Below, one piece after another: positions 1 through 31,699 of a stretch of 64,000 nt of DNA (position 1 is the first letter of the stretch; each line of letters starts with the position of its first letter). Position numbers and translations under genes: made by a program. The DNA is taken from the NCBI GenBank assembly GCA_040220875.1, contig JAVJVX010000009.1, positions 1-64,000 on the forward strand, given 5' to 3'. Source of the stretch: Alphaproteobacteria bacterium (lineage in GTDB: Bacteria; Pseudomonadota; Alphaproteobacteria; JAVJVX01). The notes under the pieces were generated by a model, which was not told the DNA's origin, searched no databases, and saw only the letters and a program-made list of their open reading frames with translations.

Positions 1-1449
1 ATGCCCATTGAGATAACGATGCCGGCGCTTTCGCCGACGATGGAGGAGGGGACTTTGGCGAAATGGCTGAAGTCCGAGGGTGATTCTGTTTCGGCCGGGG
101 ATGTTATTGCGGAGATCGAGACGGACAAGGCGACGATGGAGGTTGAGGCTGTTGACGAGGGTGTTTTGGGGAAGATTCTCGTTGCCGAGGGGACGGAAGA
201 GGTCAAGGTGAACACGGCGATTGCTCTTCTTCTCGAGGAGGGCGAGGATCGTTCTGCGCTTGAGGGGTATACGCCGAAGGCATCCGGGGCGGGTCCGTCG
301 GCCGAAGCGGCCCCGAACGGCGAATCGTCCGAGGCAAGCGCGGAAGCAGCGCCGGCCGCTCAAAAACCGGCCGAGGCGAGCCCCCTTGCCCGGCGCATGG
401 CAGCGAAGGCGGGAATTGACCTTTCCGCCGTCAAGGGGACGGGGCCGGACGGACGCATCGTCAAGGGAGACGTCGAAAAAATCCTGCACACCAAGCAGGG
501 CACGGGACAAGGCGGCGGCGCTCGCGGCGCCCGACCGCCTGCCGAAGGCGAACCGGCGACGGGTCCGGGCGGACGTATTTTCGCGAGCCCGCTTGCCCGG
601 CGCATCGCGGAAAACGAGGGCCTCGATATCGCGCGAATCGCGGGCTCAGGCCCCCACGGACGGATCATCAAGGCCGACGTGGAAACAGCCCTCGCCACGG
701 GTGCGGCCAGGGGTGGCGCTGCCGCGGCGGCGGCGGCCGATGCCGAACTCGAACCGGCCTACGATCTCGTCAAGCTGTCCAACACGCGCAAGATCATCGC
801 CAAGCGACTGAGTGAATCGAAGCGCGAAATTCCGCATTTCTACATGACGGTGGATTGCGAGACGGACAACCTGCTCGCCGCACGCAAGCGGCTCAATGCC
901 GCAAGTCCGGAGGGTGAGGGCGCTTTCAAGCTTTCGGTCAATGATTTCGTCATCAAGGCCGTGGCCGTGGCGCTCAAGCAGGTGCCGGCGGCCAATGCAG
1001 AGTTCACGGCCGAGGGTCTCAAGATGTTCAAGCGCGCCGATATCTCGGTCGCGGTGGCGGTTGAAGGCGGGCTCATCACGCCGATCATCCGGGCCGCCGA
1101 AACCAAGGGGCTCCGGCAGATCTCGGCCGAGATGCGCGACCTTGCGGGGCGCGCGCGGGAGGGCAAGCTCCAGCCCGAGGAATATCAGGGCGGCACGTTC
1201 TCGATCTCCAATCTCGGCATGTACGGGATCCGGGAGTTCGCGGCTGTCATCAACCCGCCACAGGGTGCGATCCTGGCAATTGGCGCGGGCGAAGAGCGCC
1301 CGGTGGTGCGGAATGGCGAAATTGTCATCCGGAACATGATGTCGGTGACGCTGTCCTGCGATCATCGTGTCGTGGACGGGGCTGTCGGAGCTGAATTCCT
1401 CGCGGCGTTCAGGGCGCTGATCGAGGAGCCCGTCGGCATGTTGCTATAA
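1..1449 (+). CDS. pdhC: Pyruvate dehydrogenase E2 (dihydrolipoamide acetyltransferase), with two E3-binding domains
   Basis: E2 core subunit of the cytosolic pyruvate dehydrogenase complex; it moves the acetyl group from E1 onto CoA through a swinging lipoyl arm. 482 aa. An N-terminal lipoyl domain spans about residues 2-80, with the lipoylated Lys43 in [11 protein letters not shown]. Two peripheral-subunit-binding domains follow, at about 127-162 ([19 protein letters not shown]) and 196-231 ([19 protein letters not shown]), joined by a Gly/Pro/Ala-rich linker. The acyltransferase core runs to the C-terminus and contains the active-site stretch SCDHRVVDG (His about 455). The window opens on the ATG, and the sequence starts as this family normally does ([20 protein letters not shown]), so the gene looks complete. 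E3 follows 11 bases downstream; E1 genes presumably lie upstream, outside the window. The doubled binding domain is unusual, since one copy is typical. Confidence 0.96.
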
Positions 1450-1460
1450 GGAATCGGAAT

Positions 1461-2861
1461 ATGGCGGACACCAAATTCGACCTCATCGTCATCGGCGGCG
1501 GACCCGGCGGCTACGTCGCCGCCATCAGGGCATCCCAGCTCGGCATGAAGGCGGCGGTGGTGGAGCGCGAGCATTTGGGCGGGATCTGCCTGAACTGGGG
1601 ATGCATTCCGACCAAGGCGCTGCTCAGGACGTCGGAAGTTTATCACCTGATGAAAAATGCCGCGTCTTTCGGTCTCAAGGCCGAGAATGTCTCGATCGAC
1701 CTCAAAAAGATCGTCGAACGCTCGCGCAAGGTTGCGGGCCAGCTCAGTAACGGCGTCGGCTACCTGATGAAGAAGCACAAGGTGACGGTCATTGAGGGGG
1801 CGGGGCATCTCGCCGGACGGGGCAAGGTGGCGGTGGAGAAGGATGGCAAGGGCGTAGCCGAGCTTGAGGCCCGGCACATCATCCTTGCAACCGGCGCGCG
1901 GGCGCGCCAGCTACCGGGACTAGAGTCCGACGGCAAGTTGATCTGGACCTACAAGGAGGCGCTGGTCCCCGAAACGATGCCGAAGTCGCTGCTGGTCGTG
2001 GGCTCGGGAGCCATCGGAATCGAATTTGCCAGCTTCTATCGCGAGCTGGGCGCCGAGGTCACCGTGGTTGAGGTGCTCGACCGGATCTTGCCGGTGGAGG
2101 ATGCGGAAATTTCCGCCTTGGCCGAGAAGGCCTTTACCAGTCAGGGCATCAAGATCGTCACCGGAGCCGGCGTAAAGAGCCTCAAGAAAGGCAAGAATAA
2201 CGTCACGGCGACGATTGAAAAAGGCGGCAAGACCGAATCGCGGACAGTGGACCGGGTCATCATGGCCGTGGGCATTACCGGCAACGTCGAGAACATCGGC
2301 CTCGAGAAAACCAAGGTGAAGGTGGAAAAAGGCCATGTCGTCGTCAATGAGTGGCTGGAGACGGGCGAGCCTGGCGTCTACGCCATCGGCGATCTGGTCG
2401 GGGCGCCGTGGCTCGCTCATAAGGCCAGCCACGAAGGCGTCATCTGTGTCGAGAAAATCGCCGGGCAAAAAGGCGTGCATCCGCTCGATACCGGGAATAT
2501 CCCCGCCTGTACCTATTGCCGGCCGCAGATCGCCAGCGTCGGCCTGACCGAGACGGCGGCCCGGGAAAAGGGCCATGACGTGCGCGTCGGTCGTTTTCCC
2601 TACCAGGGGAACGGCAAGGCCATTGCGCTCGGCGAGTCCGAGGGCCTGATCAAGACCGTTTTCGACAAGAAGACCGGCGAGCTCCTCGGCGCTCATCTGA
2701 TCGGCGCCGAGGTGACGGAACTGATCCAGGGCTACGCCGTGGCGCGTACGCTGGAGACGACGGAAGCGGAACTGATCAATACCGTCTTCCCTCATCCGAC
2801 ACTATCGGAAATGATGCACGAGTCGGTCCTTGACGCCTATGGTCGCGTACTCCACATCTAA
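1461..2861 (+). CDS. lpdA: Dihydrolipoamide dehydrogenase (E3)
   Basis: FAD flavoenzyme that reoxidises the dihydrolipoyl arm of E2 and passes electrons to NAD+. 466 aa, normal length. The N-terminal FAD-binding motif is GGGPGGYVAAIRASQ, and the redox-active disulfide is Cys43/Cys48 in GGICLNWGCIPTK. The NAD-binding glycine motif VVGSGAIGIEFAS lies near residue 180. The C-terminal His445-Glu450 pair in HPTLSE belongs to the partner active site of the dimer. It lies directly behind the E2 gene, so it most likely serves the pyruvate dehydrogenase complex, although one E3 can also be shared with other 2-oxoacid dehydrogenases. Confidence 0.97.
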   Translation: MADTKFDLIVIGGGPGGYVAAIRASQLGMKAAVVEREHLGGICLNWGCIPTKALLRTSEVYHLMKNAASFGLKAENVSIDLKKIVERSRKVAGQLSNGVGYLMKKHKVTVIEGAGHLAGRGKVAVEKDGKGVAELEARHIILATGARARQLPGLESDGKLIWTYKEALVPETMPKSLLVVGSGAIGIEFASFYRELGAEVTVVEVLDRILPVEDAEISALAEKAFTSQGIKIVTGAGVKSLKKGKNNVTATIEKGGKTESRTVDRVIMAVGITGNVENIGLEKTKVKVEKGHVVVNEWLETGEPGVYAIGDLVGAPWLAHKASHEGVICVEKIAGQKGVHPLDTGNIPACTYCRPQIASVGLTETAAREKGHDVRVGRFPYQGNGKAIALGESEGLIKTVFDKKTGELLGAHLIGAEVTELIQGYAVARTLETTEAELINTVFPHPTLSEMMHESVLDAYGRVLHI

Positions 2862-2898
2862 AGGAGATGGCGGGGGCCGGCACTGAAAGGAGACCCGT

Positions 2899-3861
2899 TT
2901 GACGGACATCCAGAACATGGCGCCCGATGCCGGGCTGGAAACGGCAGGCGACACGGCGGCGCACGCGCTCCGCAAGCCGTCCTGGATTCGGGTCAAGGCG
3001 CCGGTATCGGCCGAATATAACCGCACGCGCAAGCTCATGCGCGAGTTGCGCCTGAACACGGTCTGCGAAGAGGCGGCCTGCCCAAATATCGGCGAATGCT
3101 GGGCGCAGCGTCACGCGACCGTCATGATTCTGGGCAGCGTGTGCACGCGCGCCTGTGCCTTCTGCAACGTCAAGACCGGCAAGCCCGATCTTCTCGATCC
3201 GCATGAGCCCGACCACCTGGCCGAAGCAGTCGGCCGGCTGGGCCTGGAACACGTCGTCATCACCTCCGTGGATCGCGACGATCTTCCCGATGGCGGCGCG
3301 GCGCATTTCGTCGCGTGTATCGAAAAAATACGCAAGACCTCACCGGGGACAACCATCGAAATCCTGACGCCGGATTTCCTGCGTAAGGGAGGCGCGGTGG
3401 AGGCGATCTGTGCCGCGAAGCCGGATGTCTACAATCACAACCTCGAGACCGTGCCCCGGCTGTATGCGGCCGTACGGCCGGGGGCACGTTATTTTCACTC
3501 CTTGCGCCTGCTGAGCGACGTGAAGCGGCACGACCCGTCGATCTTCACAAAATCCGGGATCATGGTGGGGCTCGGCGAAACCGCGGATGAAGTGGTGCAG
3601 GTAATGGACGATTTGCGGGCGGCCGATGTGGATTTCATTACCATCGGCCAATACCTGCAGCCGACGCCCAAACATCACGAAGTCAAACGTTTCGTTACGC
3701 CCGATGAATTTGAGGGCTATGCGCGGACCGCGCGGGGCAAGGGGTTCCTGATGGTCTCGGCCTCGCCGCTCACCCGGTCCTCCTATCATGCTGGTGATGA
3801 CTTCGAGAAACTCCGTGCGGCGCGCCAGTCGCAGCTTGCGCGGGACGGACATCCCGGTTAG
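2899..3861 (+). CDS. lipA: Lipoyl synthase
   Basis: Radical SAM enzyme that inserts two sulfurs into the octanoyl group carried by E2-type proteins, making the lipoyl cofactor used by the complex encoded just upstream. 320 aa. The auxiliary cluster cysteines are Cys56, Cys61 and Cys67 ([12 protein letters not shown]), and the radical SAM cluster cysteines are Cys82, Cys86 and Cys89 (CTRACAFC). The C-terminal RSSYHA motif carries the Ser that ligates the auxiliary cluster. The chosen start is a TTG with a good ribosome site (AAAGGAGA) about 7 bases upstream; an ATG six codons later is possible. It lies in a cluster with lpdA and ratA. lipB was not seen in the window. Confidence 0.96.
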
Positions 3862-24941: not shown

Positions 24942-25114
24942 GAGCGTCTCCCTATTATATTTTATTTGGAAATAATGATATCGGGAAGGTCCCCACTGTC
25001 AACGCATAATCCGTGACCCTGCCTCATGTCGGGATGCCGGGAAAATCGCTTGGAGATTGTCCGCCTCGCGGCAGCCCCGTAAGGTCCAGGCGGAAAATAC
25101 CGGGGGGCAGGGTG

Positions 25115-26062
25115 ATGCCAGGCAGCGGAAAAGAGGTCGGATCCCTCGCGGAATTCGAGGTAAGGCCGGCCGGGGACGTCGCGGCCTGGCCCCGGCGGGA
25201 CTGGCTTCTGACGGCGAGCATCGCGGCATACGGGATGCTGCCCCGGGGGCGGGCACGAATTCCGCGCCTCCTCGGCCGCTGGCTGGGCGGCGGACGGAAA
25301 GCCCTGTTCCGCACCCCGGTCGGTTTCGATCTGGCGGTAGATTTCGAAAATCTTGATATTTATGCGGGCCTCGCGGTTTCGGGCGGCTGGGACGATCACG
25401 TCTGGCGCGCCTGTCGCGCCGTACTGCAGCCTGGGCAGGTTTTCTACGATATTGGCGCCAATGCCGGTTATATGGCCACGAAAGTGGGGATTGAACTTGA
25501 GGACCAGGTCACGGTTCTCGCCTTTGAGCCTCAACCGAGCCTCGCCCATGCCACCGCGAACAGCCTGGCGGCAAACGGGCTCGGGAAGGCGCGGGTTCTG
25601 CAGGTCCTGCTGGGCGCCGAGGACGGCACGGCCGACCTTTTCCTGAGCCGGCATGCTATCCACGCGTCGCTGGCGGCTCGCGAACAGGGCAGCCGGCGGC
25701 TGCGTTTGCCGATGATCCGGCTCGATACGCTGGTCGACCGCTTTGATGCGCCGCCGCCAGACGTCATCAAGATCGACGTCGAAGGGGCTGAGTTCGACGT
25801 CTTCCGGGGTGGGCAGGATGTTCTCCGTCGCTGCCTGCCTGCGATTCTTTTCGAGTGCGATGCCAACCTCGGCCGCTTTGGCCGATCGCCCGCCGAAGTT
25901 CTGGAATTTCTCCGCAGCCTCGGCTACCCGGATTTTTATGCTGTGGACCCCGGAGGCTGCCGTCCAATCGAACGCCTGGACGAGCTTGGTGAGGAGGCGG
26001 CCGATGTCATGGCGCTGCCGCCGGCGCGGATGACGCGAGCGTTTCGCGCGCTCATCAGATAG
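25115..26062 (+). CDS. FkbM-family SAM-dependent methyltransferase
   Basis: 315 aa. SAM motif I VFYDIGANAGYMATKVG, acidic motif AFEPQPSLAHATANSLAANG, and the FkbM signature DVIKIDVEGAEFDVFRGG with RLDTLVDRF just before it. FkbM enzymes methylate hydroxyl groups of sugars, polyketides or surface glycans; no sugar or polyketide genes lie near, so the substrate is unknown. The ATG is preceded by GGGGGGCAGG; an in-frame GTG one codon earlier is equally usable. It is isolated between the LysR gene and a convergent hydrolase. Confidence 0.88.
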   Translation: MPGSGKEVGSLAEFEVRPAGDVAAWPRRDWLLTASIAAYGMLPRGRARIPRLLGRWLGGGRKALFRTPVGFDLAVDFENLDIYAGLAVSGGWDDHVWRACRAVLQPGQVFYDIGANAGYMATKVGIELEDQVTVLAFEPQPSLAHATANSLAANGLGKARVLQVLLGAEDGTADLFLSRHAIHASLAAREQGSRRLRLPMIRLDTLVDRFDAPPPDVIKIDVEGAEFDVFRGGQDVLRRCLPAILFECDANLGRFGRSPAEVLEFLRSLGYPDFYAVDPGGCRPIERLDELGEEAADVMALPPARMTRAFRALIR

Positions 26063-26206: not shown

Positions 26207-27019
26207 TCAACCTGGTCGAAATTCCGGTTCCGGCAAACTCAGCGTCATCCCGTCATAGGCCGGAACGACCCCTTCGGGGCAGCGTGTCAGAAGTGCCTCG
26301 TAATCGAGGGTTTCCGGCATGTGGGTCAGAATCGCCCTTTTGGGCCCGACGCGCTCAATCCAGTCCAGCGTCTGGTCCAAGTGGGAATGAGTCGGATGTG
26401 GTGCGTAGCTGTAACAATCGACAACCCAGCACTGAAGGCCGCGCAATCTCTCGAATCCGGCCTCGGACATCGCCCGGAGATCCACCGAATAAGCAAAATC
26501 CCCAATACGAAAACCCAGCGTCGTCACCCCGCCGTGGTCCTGCGGGATTGCCATTACGGGCAAGAAAGAACCTGATTTTTTTATGCTAAAACTGCCGCTT
26601 ATAATATGTTTCTTAAGACATGGTTTAAAAAACCTGTTGTCTTGATCCGGTGGTTCAAACACATACCCGAAACGCGTTGAAATCTCTCCGATTGTCTCCT
26701 CATTCCCATATGCCGGCAGAACCTTTCCGGTCGCCCGGTTGACGAGACGCAGCTCGTCGATTCCGTTCAGGTGGTCGGCATGGGCGTGGGTGTAGAGGAC
26801 GGCGTCGAGCGTTGCCAGACCGTGGCGCAGGAACTGGGTCCTTAGATCCGGGCCGCTGTCGATCAGAATCCGGAAATCCACCCCGTCATAGCGGGTCTCC
26901 AAGAAGACCGAGGCGCGCGTGCGCCGGTTTTTTTCATTGTTCGGGTCGCACGCGCCCCAGAGATTGCCGATCCGCGGCACGCCTGCGGAGCCCCCGCACC
27001 CAAGAATATATACCTTCAA
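26207..27019 (-). CDS. Metallo-beta-lactamase-fold hydrolase (PhnP-like)
   Basis: 270 aa. Metal ligands in YTHAHADHLNGID (His78, His80, Asp82, His83), IPQDHGG, YSVDLRAM and the late ILTHMPETLDY. N-terminus MKVYILGCGGSAGVPRIG and the Cys near 24 match the PhnP/YycJ type that includes phosphoribosyl cyclic phosphodiesterases. In alphaproteobacteria this gene normally follows tatD, and here it is separated from tatD by a 3.7-kb block. Bases 26572-26642, coding for FFKPCLKKHIISGSFSIKK, use strikingly AT-rich codons unlike the rest of the gene, although the residues still align with the family. Confidence 0.85.
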   Translation of the reverse strand: MKVYILGCGGSAGVPRIGNLWGACDPNNEKNRRTRASVFLETRYDGVDFRILIDSGPDLRTQFLRHGLATLDAVLYTHAHADHLNGIDELRLVNRATGKVLPAYGNEETIGEISTRFGYVFEPPDQDNRFFKPCLKKHIISGSFSIKKSGSFLPVMAIPQDHGGVTTLGFRIGDFAYSVDLRAMSEAGFERLRGLQCWVVDCYSYAPHPTHSHLDQTLDWIERVGPKRAILTHMPETLDYEALLTRCPEGVVPAYDGMTLSLPEPEFRPG

Positions 27020-27220
27020 TTTTTTCGTTCCCTCGAAACCCGTTAATTCCTGCCGGCTTGCGCCCTGGCAGCCGGTCGTTTTGGAACGATTCGATTAAAA
27101 AACGAGAAGTCTTTTAACCAAGCTTGAACGTTTTCCTCAGACCTTGCGTCCGTGCCGCGCACGCCATCGCGTGTCTGCAGGCACTGATTCGAACACAAAA
27201 TGACGTAAGGACCAGAAGAT

Positions 27221-28591
27221 ATGCTGTTCAATCCGGCCCGTTCCCAGCGCAAGGCCTGCCCAAAGGGCGGCTGGTCGCAAATTCTCCCGAATTCCCTGCC
27301 CCGCGTCCTTACTGCGCTTCTGGCGCTGGGAGCCCTCACTCCGGCCACGGCCCTGGCTCAAATGCCAGGCGACGCGCCGCGGATCTCGGAAATCGAGCGA
27401 AAACTTGATACCACGCTCGATTCCGTACGCACACTCCAGAACGATCTGGAGCGGCTCCGTCGCGAAAACGAGGAGTTGCGCCGGTCCCGGGCGGCCGATA
27501 CCGGCGGTGCGACGGCGCCCGCGGGCTCGGAAGACCTGAAAAAATCCGTCGATGCGGTCAATGAGCGCCTCAACGACGTCGAGGACACGGTGGTCGGGAT
27601 CGAGGAGAAGGTCGGCAGCCGGGCCCTGGTCAAGGGATTTGACGCTGTCTCCCTCGATGTCGGCGGTTTTCTTCATACGGTCTTCACCCATGTCGAGGGC
27701 GAGGACGGGTCGGCCAGTTCTTTTAACCGTCAGGTATTCGAGCTTCTTATCAAGGCGGAGATGTGGGAGGACTGGACGGCCTTTATCGCCCAGGCCTTCA
27801 TCCGTGAATCGGACGTCGTCTACACCGACCCCGAAGGCCGCCGGGTGCCCGATTTCAACATCGCATCGAAAACCCCGACTGTGATCGCCTGGGCCAATTA
27901 CCGTTATTCGGACGCGCTCAACATTCAGCTCGGCCGCTACATCACACCCCACGGCATCGTAAATATCGAGCATTTCCCCGCCCTTCTGCTCGACCCGGAG
28001 CAGCCGCAATTCCTGCGGCCGTTCAGCGGGCAGACAATTTTCGCCAATTTCCTTGAAGGTGCGAATATCCACGGCCGGTTCTTCAACGGCGCCGATATCA
28101 TCCAGTACAGCGCCTATGTCGGGAATTTTACCGGGAATGCGACCGATCTCGATTACGGTGCTCGCGCCAGTTACACCTTCGGCGGCAGCGGAATCACGGT
28201 CGGCCTCAATGGTGCGGGCGGCCAGCGTCTGAAGACGCAAAACTCAGACTACCAGCTCTACGGCGTGGACCTGCTCTTCGACAAGGGCCTGTTCATCTGG
28301 AAGAACGAATTTTACCAGACCTTCGAGCAGTTGGGCGATGACCGGCTTGCCTACTACACGCAGCCGGGCATCCGTCTCACCGATCAGTGGACCGCCTTTT
28401 ACCGTTACGACTTCCTCGACAATGGCGGCACGGCGGGCGATCAGGTCGAAAATGCCTTTGGCCTGTCCTTCAAGCCCAACCCGGCGGTTCATCTGAGAGC
28501 GATCACGCGGTTGCAGGAGATCGACGACGGACTCGGTGTCAGCGGTGCCGACACCCAACAGTATCAGTTCCTGGCAACGTTCTCCTTCTAG
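27221..28591 (+). CDS. Outer-membrane beta-barrel (porin-like) protein with coiled-coil N-terminus
   Basis: 456 aa. A long signal peptide ends near residue 46 (PATALAQ). Residues 55-90 and 105-130 are predicted coiled coil (LERLRRENEELRRSR), and from about 135 onward there are alternating hydrophobic/aromatic strands ending in the terminal Phe of ATFSF, the usual signal for outer-membrane assembly. The organisation (coiled-coil segment plus barrel, NIQLGRYITPHGIVNIEHFP) resembles DcaP/OprP-like porins; substrate unknown. First gene of a tight three-gene unit (gaps of 21 and 35 bases) with the binding-protein-like and chemoreceptor genes. A 201-bp divergent gap upstream holds its promoter region. 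Confidence 0.75.
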   Translation: MLFNPARSQRKACPKGGWSQILPNSLPRVLTALLALGALTPATALAQMPGDAPRISEIERKLDTTLDSVRTLQNDLERLRRENEELRRSRAADTGGATAPAGSEDLKKSVDAVNERLNDVEDTVVGIEEKVGSRALVKGFDAVSLDVGGFLHTVFTHVEGEDGSASSFNRQVFELLIKAEMWEDWTAFIAQAFIRESDVVYTDPEGRRVPDFNIASKTPTVIAWANYRYSDALNIQLGRYITPHGIVNIEHFPALLLDPEQPQFLRPFSGQTIFANFLEGANIHGRFFNGADIIQYSAYVGNFTGNATDLDYGARASYTFGGSGITVGLNGAGGQRLKTQNSDYQLYGVDLLFDKGLFIWKNEFYQTFEQLGDDRLAYYTQPGIRLTDQWTAFYRYDFLDNGGTAGDQVENAFGLSFKPNPAVHLRAITRLQEIDDGLGVSGADTQQYQFLATFSF

Positions 28592-28612
28592 ACCTGGCGA
28601 CGAGGGTAAAAA

Positions 28613-29071
28613 ATGTTTAGCAAATTCAAGCGACTCTATTTCATCAGCGCGGTGACCGCCGTTTTCCTGACGGCTGCGGGCGGCACGGCTCAGGCGGAAG
28701 ACTTCATTCTCGTGGTCAATTCAGCCAATCCGATTGCTGCCGGCGGCGACACGAAGACCGTTATCAAGAGGCTCTACCTGAAGCAGATGTCGGAATGGCC
28801 ACACGGCGAGAAATCTATCGTTTTCGATCGTGAGCCCGACTCGGCAGCCTACCAGGGCTTCATTGCCTCGGTACTCGGCATGAGCCAGGCGGAGCTGGAC
28901 GACCACTGGCTGCGACTGAAGCAAACCACGGGCGACACACCGCCCCGCTCCGTCGGGTCTGCGCGGATTCTGGTCCGGCAGATCGAGAAGAACGCGGGAG
29001 CCTTGAGCTATATGCCGGCGAGCGAAGCGGAAGACCTCGGAGAGGGTGTGAAAATCCTGTTGAAGTTTTAG
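28613..29071 (+). CDS. Small periplasmic phosphate-binding-protein-like protein
   Basis: 152 aa, signal peptide cleaved after about residue 28 (GGTAQA), leaving a mature protein of about 124 aa. The mature part (DFILVVNSANPIAAGGDTKTVIKRLYLKQMSEWPHG, here described by residues 30-65) resembles the N-terminal lobe of PstS-type phosphate/oxyanion binding proteins, but the protein is less than half the length of PstS. The end pattern GALSYMPASEAEDLGEGVKIL also matches that fold. Such half-size members are often encoded next to membrane sensors. Function here is inferred: a periplasmic ligand-presenting partner of the chemoreceptor downstream. Confidence 0.7.
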   Translation: MFSKFKRLYFISAVTAVFLTAAGGTAQAEDFILVVNSANPIAAGGDTKTVIKRLYLKQMSEWPHGEKSIVFDREPDSAAYQGFIASVLGMSQAELDDHWLRLKQTTGDTPPRSVGSARILVRQIEKNAGALSYMPASEAEDLGEGVKILLKF

Positions 29072-29106
29072 CGGGACAACCGCGCAAGGTTTTGGGGGAA
29101 TAGGGC

Positions 29107-30897
29107 ATGTTCAAGGAATTCATGAAGCGGACATCGGATCGTAACTCGGGGGGCGTTTTCAGCAAACTCGCGCTGATCCCGATCCGGACGAAACTCTTTG
29201 GCCTTCTGGGCCTGCTGCTGGTAGCGAGCGTGGTCGGGAATCTCGTCATTCGCGGCGGCGTGTCGGATGCGAACATGGCCGTGGAAACCCAGGTGACGAG
29301 CCTGGCGCGCCTGGAGCTGGTTCAGGACGCCAACAATGATTTCTCGGACATGAAGTACTGGTATACCGACCTCTCCAACAGCCTGTCCGAAAAATCCCTG
29401 GCCGAAGCCACCAAGTCGCTCGACCTGCTGCAATCAGGACTCGATCAGATCGAGGTCTTCGCGCCGGAGGCGGTCTCCCCTCTCCGCACGCACGTGACCG
29501 CAATCGAAGACGAATCGCTCAACGCCCTTGACGCCTATGCGGTCGATGACCGGTTGACCGGGAACGGACATATGGAAGTCGCCCGCCAGCATATGGCCAC
29601 GGTTACCGGCGCCCTGAACGAACTCCTGGCGACAGAGAGAAATGCGGCCCAGGCGGCGAATGGCATTGTGCGCAACGAGACCAGCCGCGTCCTGACGCTT
29701 TCCTTTCTGGTCCTGTTCGTGACAGCAAGCTTCACGGCCGTGGTGGCACTCACTATTCTCGGCTCGGTCGTCTCACCCCTTCGGCGCATGACGGGGTCCA
29801 TGTCGCAGCTTGCCTCGGGGGACAAGGATATAGATCTGCCGGATCTCGTCCGGAGCGATGAATTCGGCGACATGGCCCGCGCGGTCGAGGTCTTCCGGGA
29901 AAATGCCATCCGCGCGGATGCCCTGGCGGAAGAAAAGGAAAAGGAACGCGCGGCGACAGAACAACGGGTTCTCGAGATCGAACGCCTCAATGCGGAACAG
30001 AAGCGTCAGGCGGAAGCGCGGGCCAAGGAGCAGGAAGCAAAGGAGAAGCGGGCTCGGCAGCTCGAGGACGCCAGCCGCAAGTTTGAATCCGACGTCGCAG
30101 AAGCGCTCGAGGCCGTCGCCCGGTCTTGCGAGACCATGTACTCGACGGCTGACAGCATGTCGAACACGGCGACTCTGACGGCGAAGGAGACCGAGCAGGT
30201 CTCCAGCTCGACCGTTTCGGCCTCCGACAGCATCCAGGCCGTCGCCGCGGCGGCTGAAGAGCTTTCGGCCTCCATCGCGGAGATCACCCGTCAGGTCAAC
30301 GAGTCGGAGACGATTGCCGCCAATGCGGTCAACGAGTCGGAGGAAGCGTCAATTGTCGTAAAGAGTCTGTCGGATACCGCGAACGAGGTGAGCGAGGTGA
30401 CGGCACTGATCAGCGAAATCGCCAATCAGACCAATCTCCTTGCGCTGAACGCAACAATCGAGGCGGCGCGTGCCGGTGAAGCTGGCAAGGGTTTCGCCAT
30501 CGTGGCATCTGAAGTCAAGGATCTCGCCAATCAGACGGCGGCCGCGACGGAAAAGATCTCGACCCAGATGTCCCTGATGCAGGAGGCGACGGGAAAGACC
30601 GTTTCGGTCATCACCAAGGTCAAGGACATCATTCAGCAACTCGGCGACATTGCCGGTGTGGTGACCGAATCGGTACAGCAGCAGGATTCCGCGACCCGGG
30701 AAATCGCGGAAAGATCGCAGAACGTCTCGATGACGATGGGCGAAGTTTCGACGTCTGCCAGCGGCGTCAGCAGGCGGGCTTCGGAAACCGGCGCATCGGC
30801 GGCACAAGTGCTGGAAGCATCGGGAGAAGTCGCGCAGCAGGCCGAGTTCCTCAAGAACGAGGTCAGCAAGTTCCTGGCGGGCATCAAGGCGGCCTGA
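29107..30897 (+). CDS. Methyl-accepting chemotaxis protein
   Basis: 596 aa transmembrane chemoreceptor. TM1 about 28-50, periplasmic four-helix-type sensor domain 51-194, TM2 195-223, HAMP 224-276, a long charged helix rich in Lys/Glu/Arg 270-320, then the signalling hairpin whose tip [20 protein letters not shown] (about 435-454) binds CheA/CheW. Glutamate/glutamine methylation sites are expected flanking it. No CheR-docking pentapeptide at the C-terminus (ends FLAGIKAA). Last gene of the barrel-binding protein-receptor unit; no che genes in the window. Ligand unknown. Confidence 0.93.
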
Positions 30898-30910
30898 TCC
30901 TCGGCCTCAC

Positions 30911-31699
30911 TCACGCAGCGGCGGGACGGTCGATCTTGCGAAAAAGGGTGAAGAAGTTTTCCGTGGTGTGTTCGGCCAGCGCTGAGGGAGACATTTCCCT
31001 GAGTTCGGCCAACCGCGCTGCCGTATGGGCCACATAGGCGGGCTCGTTGCGCTTGCCGCGCTTCGGGACCGGCGCCAGATAAGGGGCGTCTGTTTCGACC
31101 AGGATCCTGTCGAGTGGCGCGTCGCGGGCGATATCCCGAAGAGCCTCGGCCTTCTTGAACGTCACGATGCCGGAAAACGAGATGTAGAGCCCGAGGTCGA
31201 GAGCGCATTCGGCGAGCGCCGGACCGGAACTGAAACAGTGAATGAGGCCGGGAAAGGCGCCCTTTTCGTGCTCGTCGCGCAGAATGGCGATGATATCGTC
31301 GTCCGCCTCCCGCGCATGGACGATGAGGGGGAGCCCGGTTTCGCGGGCGGCCCCGATATGGGCGCGGAAATTTTCCCGCTGCTTGTCCCGGGGGGCGTGC
31401 TCGTAGAAATAGTCGAGGCCGGTCTCTCCGATTCCGACGACCTTGGGGTGCTCGGTTTCACGCATCAGCGTTTCCTTGGCGACGCCGGACTCGTTCTCGG
31501 CCTCATGCGGATGAATCCCGACCGAACACCATATACGGTCACACCCTTCCGCCACGCGCCGCACGCCCGGAAAGCGGCTGAGACGGGTGCCGATCGTCAG
31601 CATCGCGCCTACGCCGGCCGCCGCCGCCCGGTCGATCACCTCAGGCAGATCATCTGCGAAATCGGGAAAATCCAGATGGCAGTGACTGTCCACCAGCAT
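30911..31699 (-). CDS. tatD: TatD-family metal-dependent hydrolase
   Basis: 262 aa TIM-barrel deoxyribonuclease. Metal ligands in DSHCHLDF (His6, His8), Glu in GIGETGLDYFYEHAP, His in IVHAREADDD, His in LIHCFSSG, and Asp in LVETDAPYLAPVP. The start overlaps the metG stop by one base. It is the last gene of the minus-strand tmk-holB-metG-tatD unit and converges with the chemoreceptor gene. Confidence 0.94.
   Translation of the reverse strand: MLVDSHCHLDFPDFADDLPEVIDRAAAAGVGAMLTIGTRLSRFPGVRRVAEGCDRIWCSVGIHPHEAENESGVAKETLMRETEHPKVVGIGETGLDYFYEHAPRDKQRENFRAHIGAARETGLPLIVHAREADDDIIAILRDEHEKGAFPGLIHCFSSGPALAECALDLGLYISFSGIVTFKKAEALRDIARDAPLDRILVETDAPYLAPVPKRGKRNEPAYVAHTAARLAELREMSPSALAEHTTENFFTLFRKIDRPAAA

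Follow-up and report, generated by a model that had tools for sequence, protein, structure and literature searches.

Layout and protein folds of an inserted cassette

We analysed a 64,000-nucleotide stretch of DNA (the window) in which three genes lie in a row on the + strand and encode an outer-membrane barrel of 456 aa (27221..28591), a predicted half-size periplasmic binding protein (half-PBP) with a 152 aa precursor (28613..29071), and a methyl-accepting chemotaxis protein (MCP) of 596 aa (29107..30897). Intervals of 21 and 35 bp separate the genes, exactly as the initial annotation had reported. No terminator-like site was found on the + strand between the three genes, and a promoter and terminator search at the cassette gave no reliable signal. 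The whole cassette (27020..30910, strand unspecified) spans the interval from the start codon of an MBL-fold hydrolase gene (26207..27019, − strand; PF12706, 5e-34) to the stop codon of tatD (30911..31699, − strand; PF01026, 4e-87). Of 29 other alphaproteobacterial genomes, 27 have these two flanking genes next to each other (0–146 bp apart); in the window the triplet alone separates them, and the comparison shows that the cassette was inserted between them as a block. None of the other cassettes we found occupies this site. An FkbM-type methyltransferase gene (25013–26062, + strand) lies near the cassette.

The barrel precursor begins with a signal peptide, followed by a periplasmic coiled-coil region at residues 52–130 (27374..27610, + strand; model helices 52–93 and 104–130) and an all-strand porin barrel domain at residues 144–456 (27650..28588, + strand) that ends in Phe. 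A barrel of ~16 strands, the C-terminal Phe and the signal peptide place it among general and specific porins, in agreement with its earlier description as a coiled-coil, porin-like barrel. The modelled fold resembles OprP (VIA Z 25.9), OprO (25.6) and DcaP (23.1), and since general porins score nearly as high (24–25, tied within 1–2), the only safe name for the modelled protein is porin.

The small protein carries a signal peptide ending ...GTAQA, and cleavage at the site inferred from the sequence would leave ~124 mature residues (29–152; 28697..29068, + strand), with the fold match starting at residue 28. Searches of Pfam, NCBIfam and the PDB with this single sequence returned nothing meaningful, and a relationship to PstS was revealed only by an alignment profile and a fold search. 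The AlphaFold model built from an alignment of 39 relatives (mean pLDDT 93) has PstS proteins as its best solved structures, with S. pneumoniae PstS1 residues 107–231 matched at VIA Z 13.5 (1.8 Å over 104 residues) and V. cholerae 1twy at VIA Z 12.8. A profile of 14 diverse relatives also retrieves 1twy (E 3.4e-7), aligned to residues 98–214, and full-length PstS proteins met in the survey match it along this second-lobe stretch too. Pfam PF12849 (PBP_like_2) detects only two of the 39 relatives (best E 0.0017). By the structure match, the profile match and the alignment to full-length PstS, the protein is a detached PstS lobe II that spans only PstS residues ~107–231, outside the two-lobed architecture of type II PBPs; the initial annotation had likened it to one lobe of a phosphate-binding protein, and a confident half fold bears this out.

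In alignment, residue R73 of the half-PBP matches the PstS phosphate-loop arginine, which functions in phosphate binding; 37 of the 39 window-type proteins retain R73. Conservation in the window subfamily is strongest at W62, HW98–99, K103-Q104, G107 and T109-P-P-R112, and the family signature reads HWxxxKQxxGxTPPR. SAA stands where the PstS phosphate loop has SGT (R-x(3)-SGT). A second half-PBP subfamily, the prevailing one in the phylum survey, has F at position 62, the motif YWxxxxFTGKxxPP and, in most members, L or Q at position 73. Given the loss of SGT and the missing arginine of a related subfamily, phosphate is not established as the ligand beyond this one conserved residue; an anion is possible. 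The source genome (2.54 Mb, 99% complete) encodes one CheA, four MCPs and two full-length PBP_like_2 proteins, and given the latter we rejected the small gene as the Pst transporter's own subunit. Apparent half-PBP fusions in long open reading frames (577–708 aa) were rejected as out-of-frame read-through of GC-rich DNA.

A recurring barrel and half-PBP pair with varying receptors

Using the barrel as query against 84,980 species genomes in a single scan, we identified 42 barrel loci in Alphaproteobacteria (including Kordiimonas, Emcibacter, Iodidimonas, Robiginitomaculum metagenome-assembled genomes and others), Gammaproteobacteria, Nitrospirota, Planctomycetota and Opitutales, where some of the taxon labels come from metagenomic bins and could be in error, that of L041 among them. 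These loci are not all separate genomes, because L049 is the same contig as L006/G058, and the family- and order-level surveys comprised the window's own genome only. The half-PBP gene lies directly downstream of the barrel in 38 of the 42 loci, at a gap of 8–97 bp (median 11 bp in 37 tabulated loci); of the remaining four loci, L031 and L055 are truncated where the contig stops, the reading frames of L054 are broken, and L045 has no half-PBP gene. With the small gene so regularly the barrel's immediate downstream neighbour (38 of 42), the grouping of the two is not chance. Upstream of the G058 cassette, L006 carries four tandem, paralogous-looking genes of ~250–270 aa (275–3855).

Chemoreceptors accompany 31 of the 38 pairs, and the triplet that the initial annotation had proposed to seek in other genomes thus recurs across phyla. 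A downstream chemoreceptor with the window's sensor domain is present in 24 of these loci, L042 has a divergent one, and at six loci (L034, L039, L043, L046, L047 and L048) the chemoreceptor carries another sensor domain. Four Nitrospirota loci replace the chemoreceptor with a divergent hybrid kinase (HisKA-HATPase-REC-REC-Hpt where scanned), and neither a chemoreceptor nor a kinase was seen beside the pair in L050, L052 and L053. The possibility that one receptor domain is common to all cassettes was rejected with the alphaproteobacterial sensor profile, which gave no significant score for the receptors of the six loci with another sensor domain or for the Nitrospirota kinases. Distances among barrel, small-protein and sensor sequences correlate at 0.84–0.93, values that also reflect species phylogeny.

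Half-PBP genes extend well beyond these loci, occurring in 65 of 398 Pseudomonadota genomes with up to six per genome, and the multiple copies suggest paralogous channels with different ligands. In 38 of 40 wider loci inspected, the adjacent open reading frame is of barrel length and ends in an aromatic residue, as expected of an outer-membrane barrel; judged from their N-termini, these wider-family barrels seem to have no coiled coil. Motifs identify an MCP, GGDEF, EAL or kinase gene on the same strand next to the pair in at least 22 of the 40 and a receptor-type gene on the opposite strand in four; 14 have none nearby. Gene order also varies, with response regulator, barrel, half-PBP and kinase in three alphaproteobacterial loci, and plasmid copies arranged as MCP, barrel and small gene in Agarilytica and as barrel, small gene and EAL in Caballeronia. 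A further copy is found in the Bacteroidota genus Persicobacter. Synteny across the barrel loci and the wider family indicates that the barrel and half-PBP form a constant core to which an interchangeable output gene is joined. Loci L140, L141 and L142 and genomes G492, G387 and G396 hold several half-PBP copies, sometimes two close together.

A rare sensor domain beside secreted proteins

The window receptor has transmembrane segments at residues 30–48 and 200–218 flanking a periplasmic region, followed by HAMP (1.6e-10) and MCPsignal (1.1e-28) domains, an architecture that together with the CheA in the genome places it in the MCP class. Its N-terminal region has no Pfam match (4HB_MCP, TarH, Cache and PilJ included) and is helical by sequence; alignments delimit a periplasmic helical sensor domain (29251..29703, + strand) with the hallmark FxDMKYWxxDLxNSLS. 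This domain is rare, occurring in 7 of 385 alphaproteobacterial genomes and 5 of 398 genomes in a Pseudomonadota draw, for a total of nine genomes in the two surveys.

In nine of nine surveyed genomes the sensor-domain gene adjoins a gene for a secreted protein, which is a half-PBP in two (the window's own genome and G058) and a Tll0287-like protein in seven (G110, G124, G153, G325, G341, G620 and G684; assigned by Pfam PF11845 in five, and in G620 and G684 by sequence resemblance and a CLTCH motif). The Tll0287-like genes lie at L150 4679–5644 (−), L151 4866–5627, L152 6391–7155 (−), L153 3270–4046, L154 4977–5693, L189 4776–5525 and L190 7284–8105 (−). Their CxxCH motif is intact in six; the L150 protein has lost its first Cys. 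Of the seven neighbouring receptors, six are large kinases; a HAMP-PAS-kinase-REC-REC domain order confirms this for G124, G153, G325 and G341, and the assignment is by length only for G620 and G684. The seventh, from G110, belongs to an independent triplet of the same architecture (L154 3573–7572), in which an outer-membrane barrel matching Alginate_exp, a secreted c-heme protein and an MCP are encoded together. These associations suggest that stand-alone Tll0287-like (sCache_heme) proteins beside such receptors are sensor partners and not purely redox proteins.

Two complementary patterns emerge, one in which the barrel and half-PBP are constant and the receptor varies, and one in which the sensor domain is constant and its secreted partner varies. 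Set together, the partners found in the sensor-domain survey and the receptor types beside barrel and half-PBP pairs point to the half-PBP/receptor interface as the place where both swap patterns would meet. The initial annotation had envisaged a sensory series in which a ligand enters through the barrel, is bound by the small protein and is presented to the receptor; the last of these steps gains support from the nine of nine secreted neighbours, and the reading is supported in part, with the ligand's path through barrel and small protein to the receptor a presumed one. Neither outcome that the initial annotation would have taken as refutation, a triplet confined to this genome or a small protein devoid of a binding-protein fold, came about.

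Indirect sensing, its alternatives and precedents

Building on the observed gene content, folds, recurrence, block insertion and constant pairing of sensor domain with secreted protein, we consider that the three genes probably form one self-contained, indirect-sensing chemotaxis module in which the half-PBP serves as the receptor's putative soluble partner. We infer passage of ligand from porin to PBP, capture, docking and motility output as follows: a solute would enter the periplasm through the coiled-coil porin and be held by the secreted single lobe, which would dock on the receptor's helical-bundle sensor domain; the receptor would then signal to the cell's single CheA and bias swimming. 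Since a single lobe offers only half of a binding cleft, the other wall would probably come from the receptor itself or from a second half-PBP. Against indirect sensing stand the replacement of SGT by SAA and the Leu or Gln at the R73 position in most second-subfamily members, and a lone lobe may fail to bind a small ligand. The gammaproteobacterial, planctomycete and nitrospirotal receptors beside closely related barrel and half-PBP pairs also have a different, undetectably related sensor domain, and in 14 of the 40 wider loci inspected no gene of receptor type lies nearby.

The same observations bear on what the half-PBP might do instead. It could serve the barrel as a periplasmic plug, assembly factor or ligand-funnelling subunit, in which case the receptor would contact the same ligand without an intermediary and share only its regulation with the pair. 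The pair is indeed tighter than any receptor link: it is present in 38 of 40 wider loci, no receptor-type gene lies nearby in 14 of the 40, and the pair remains conserved while the receptor type beside it varies. We consider this unlikely, since the sensor domain lies beside a secreted protein in all nine genomes, that protein is of an unrelated family in seven, and no adjacent barrel was noted at the six kinase loci, all of which fits a receptor that reads a soluble protein. Those kinase loci, with no barrel noted next door, also speak against a trans-envelope relay. In such a relay the half-PBP and the barrel (perhaps trimeric) with its coiled coil would be a probe that acts by contact, and the receptor would sense whether the barrel is occupied, or the state of the envelope, and not a diffusible ligand. 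A coiled coil of ~80 residues could reach toward the inner membrane and a barrel of porin-type fold is nearly always present, but with wider-family barrels that seem to have no coiled coil we judge such a relay improbable.

Only PstS lobe II is present, and the Caballeronia half-PBP is annotated as a 'phosphate ABC transporter substrate-binding protein', so the small gene might be read as a decayed or partial PstS from a phosphate transporter that came to lie by chance beside porin and MCP genes. The protein is nevertheless intact across phyla, carries its own signature and has a barrel gene as neighbour at nearly every locus; the genome also encodes two full-length PBP_like_2 proteins elsewhere. 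Recurrence and conservation refute this reading, leaving it a negligible likelihood.

Indirect sensing by the cassette can be set beside several known systems. In Vibrio chitin sensing (context in PMC8449061, PMC7564644), ChiP, CBP and ChiS place an outer-membrane porin, a solute-binding protein and an inner-membrane sensor in one pathway, and in TorT–TorS and AioX–AioS a dedicated PBP-like partner is read by a periplasmic sensor domain. Unlike the window cassette, ChiP/CBP/ChiS uses a full-size CBP, and its genes do not form a three-gene cassette that is conserved and has swapped outputs; TorT–TorS and AioX–AioS combine two-lobed PBPs with kinase output in a unit that has no porin gene. The closest tested precedents are both from P. 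aeruginosa. In CtpL–PstS phosphate chemotaxis, the PstS-family protein and not the ligand is reported to bind and stimulate the chemoreceptor (PMC4926252), a pairing of PstS-family periplasmic protein and chemoreceptor like that in the window, although PstS there is a full two-lobed PBP common to PstSCAB and the window encodes a dedicated single lobe with receptor and porin. GltB–GtrS–GltR with OprB joins porin, PBP and inner-membrane sensor for one ligand, the PBP activating the sensor (PMC7927077), but its PBP is full-size with an ABC transporter, its output is a kinase and it is not a minimal cassette. The cassette differs from both in its single lobe, its minimal dedicated composition and its interchangeable outputs. 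Searches of the openly accessible literature gave no description of a barrel/half-PBP/receptor unit. The initial annotation was aware of no characterised system built this way, yet the series of porin, binding protein and sensor has some precedent in OprB/GltB/GtrS and ChiP/CBP/ChiS.

If indirect sensing by the cassette is correct, a PBP cut to one lobe can still serve sensing, and the porin and half-PBP would be a portable input module, shared across phyla, to which different outputs can be joined. Only tentatively, we suggest a new form of trans-envelope sensing in which a mobile porin and half-PBP core is combined with swapped MCP, c-di-GMP and kinase outputs, the helical domain of the receptor might supply the second cleft wall so that ligand capture and signal transfer become one event, and the same class of bundle might also read soluble c-heme Cache proteins. 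A redox role has been proposed for stand-alone c-heme Cache (Tll0287) proteins (PMC12889525); our sensor-domain survey suggests another possible function, as soluble sensors that an adjacent receptor reads.
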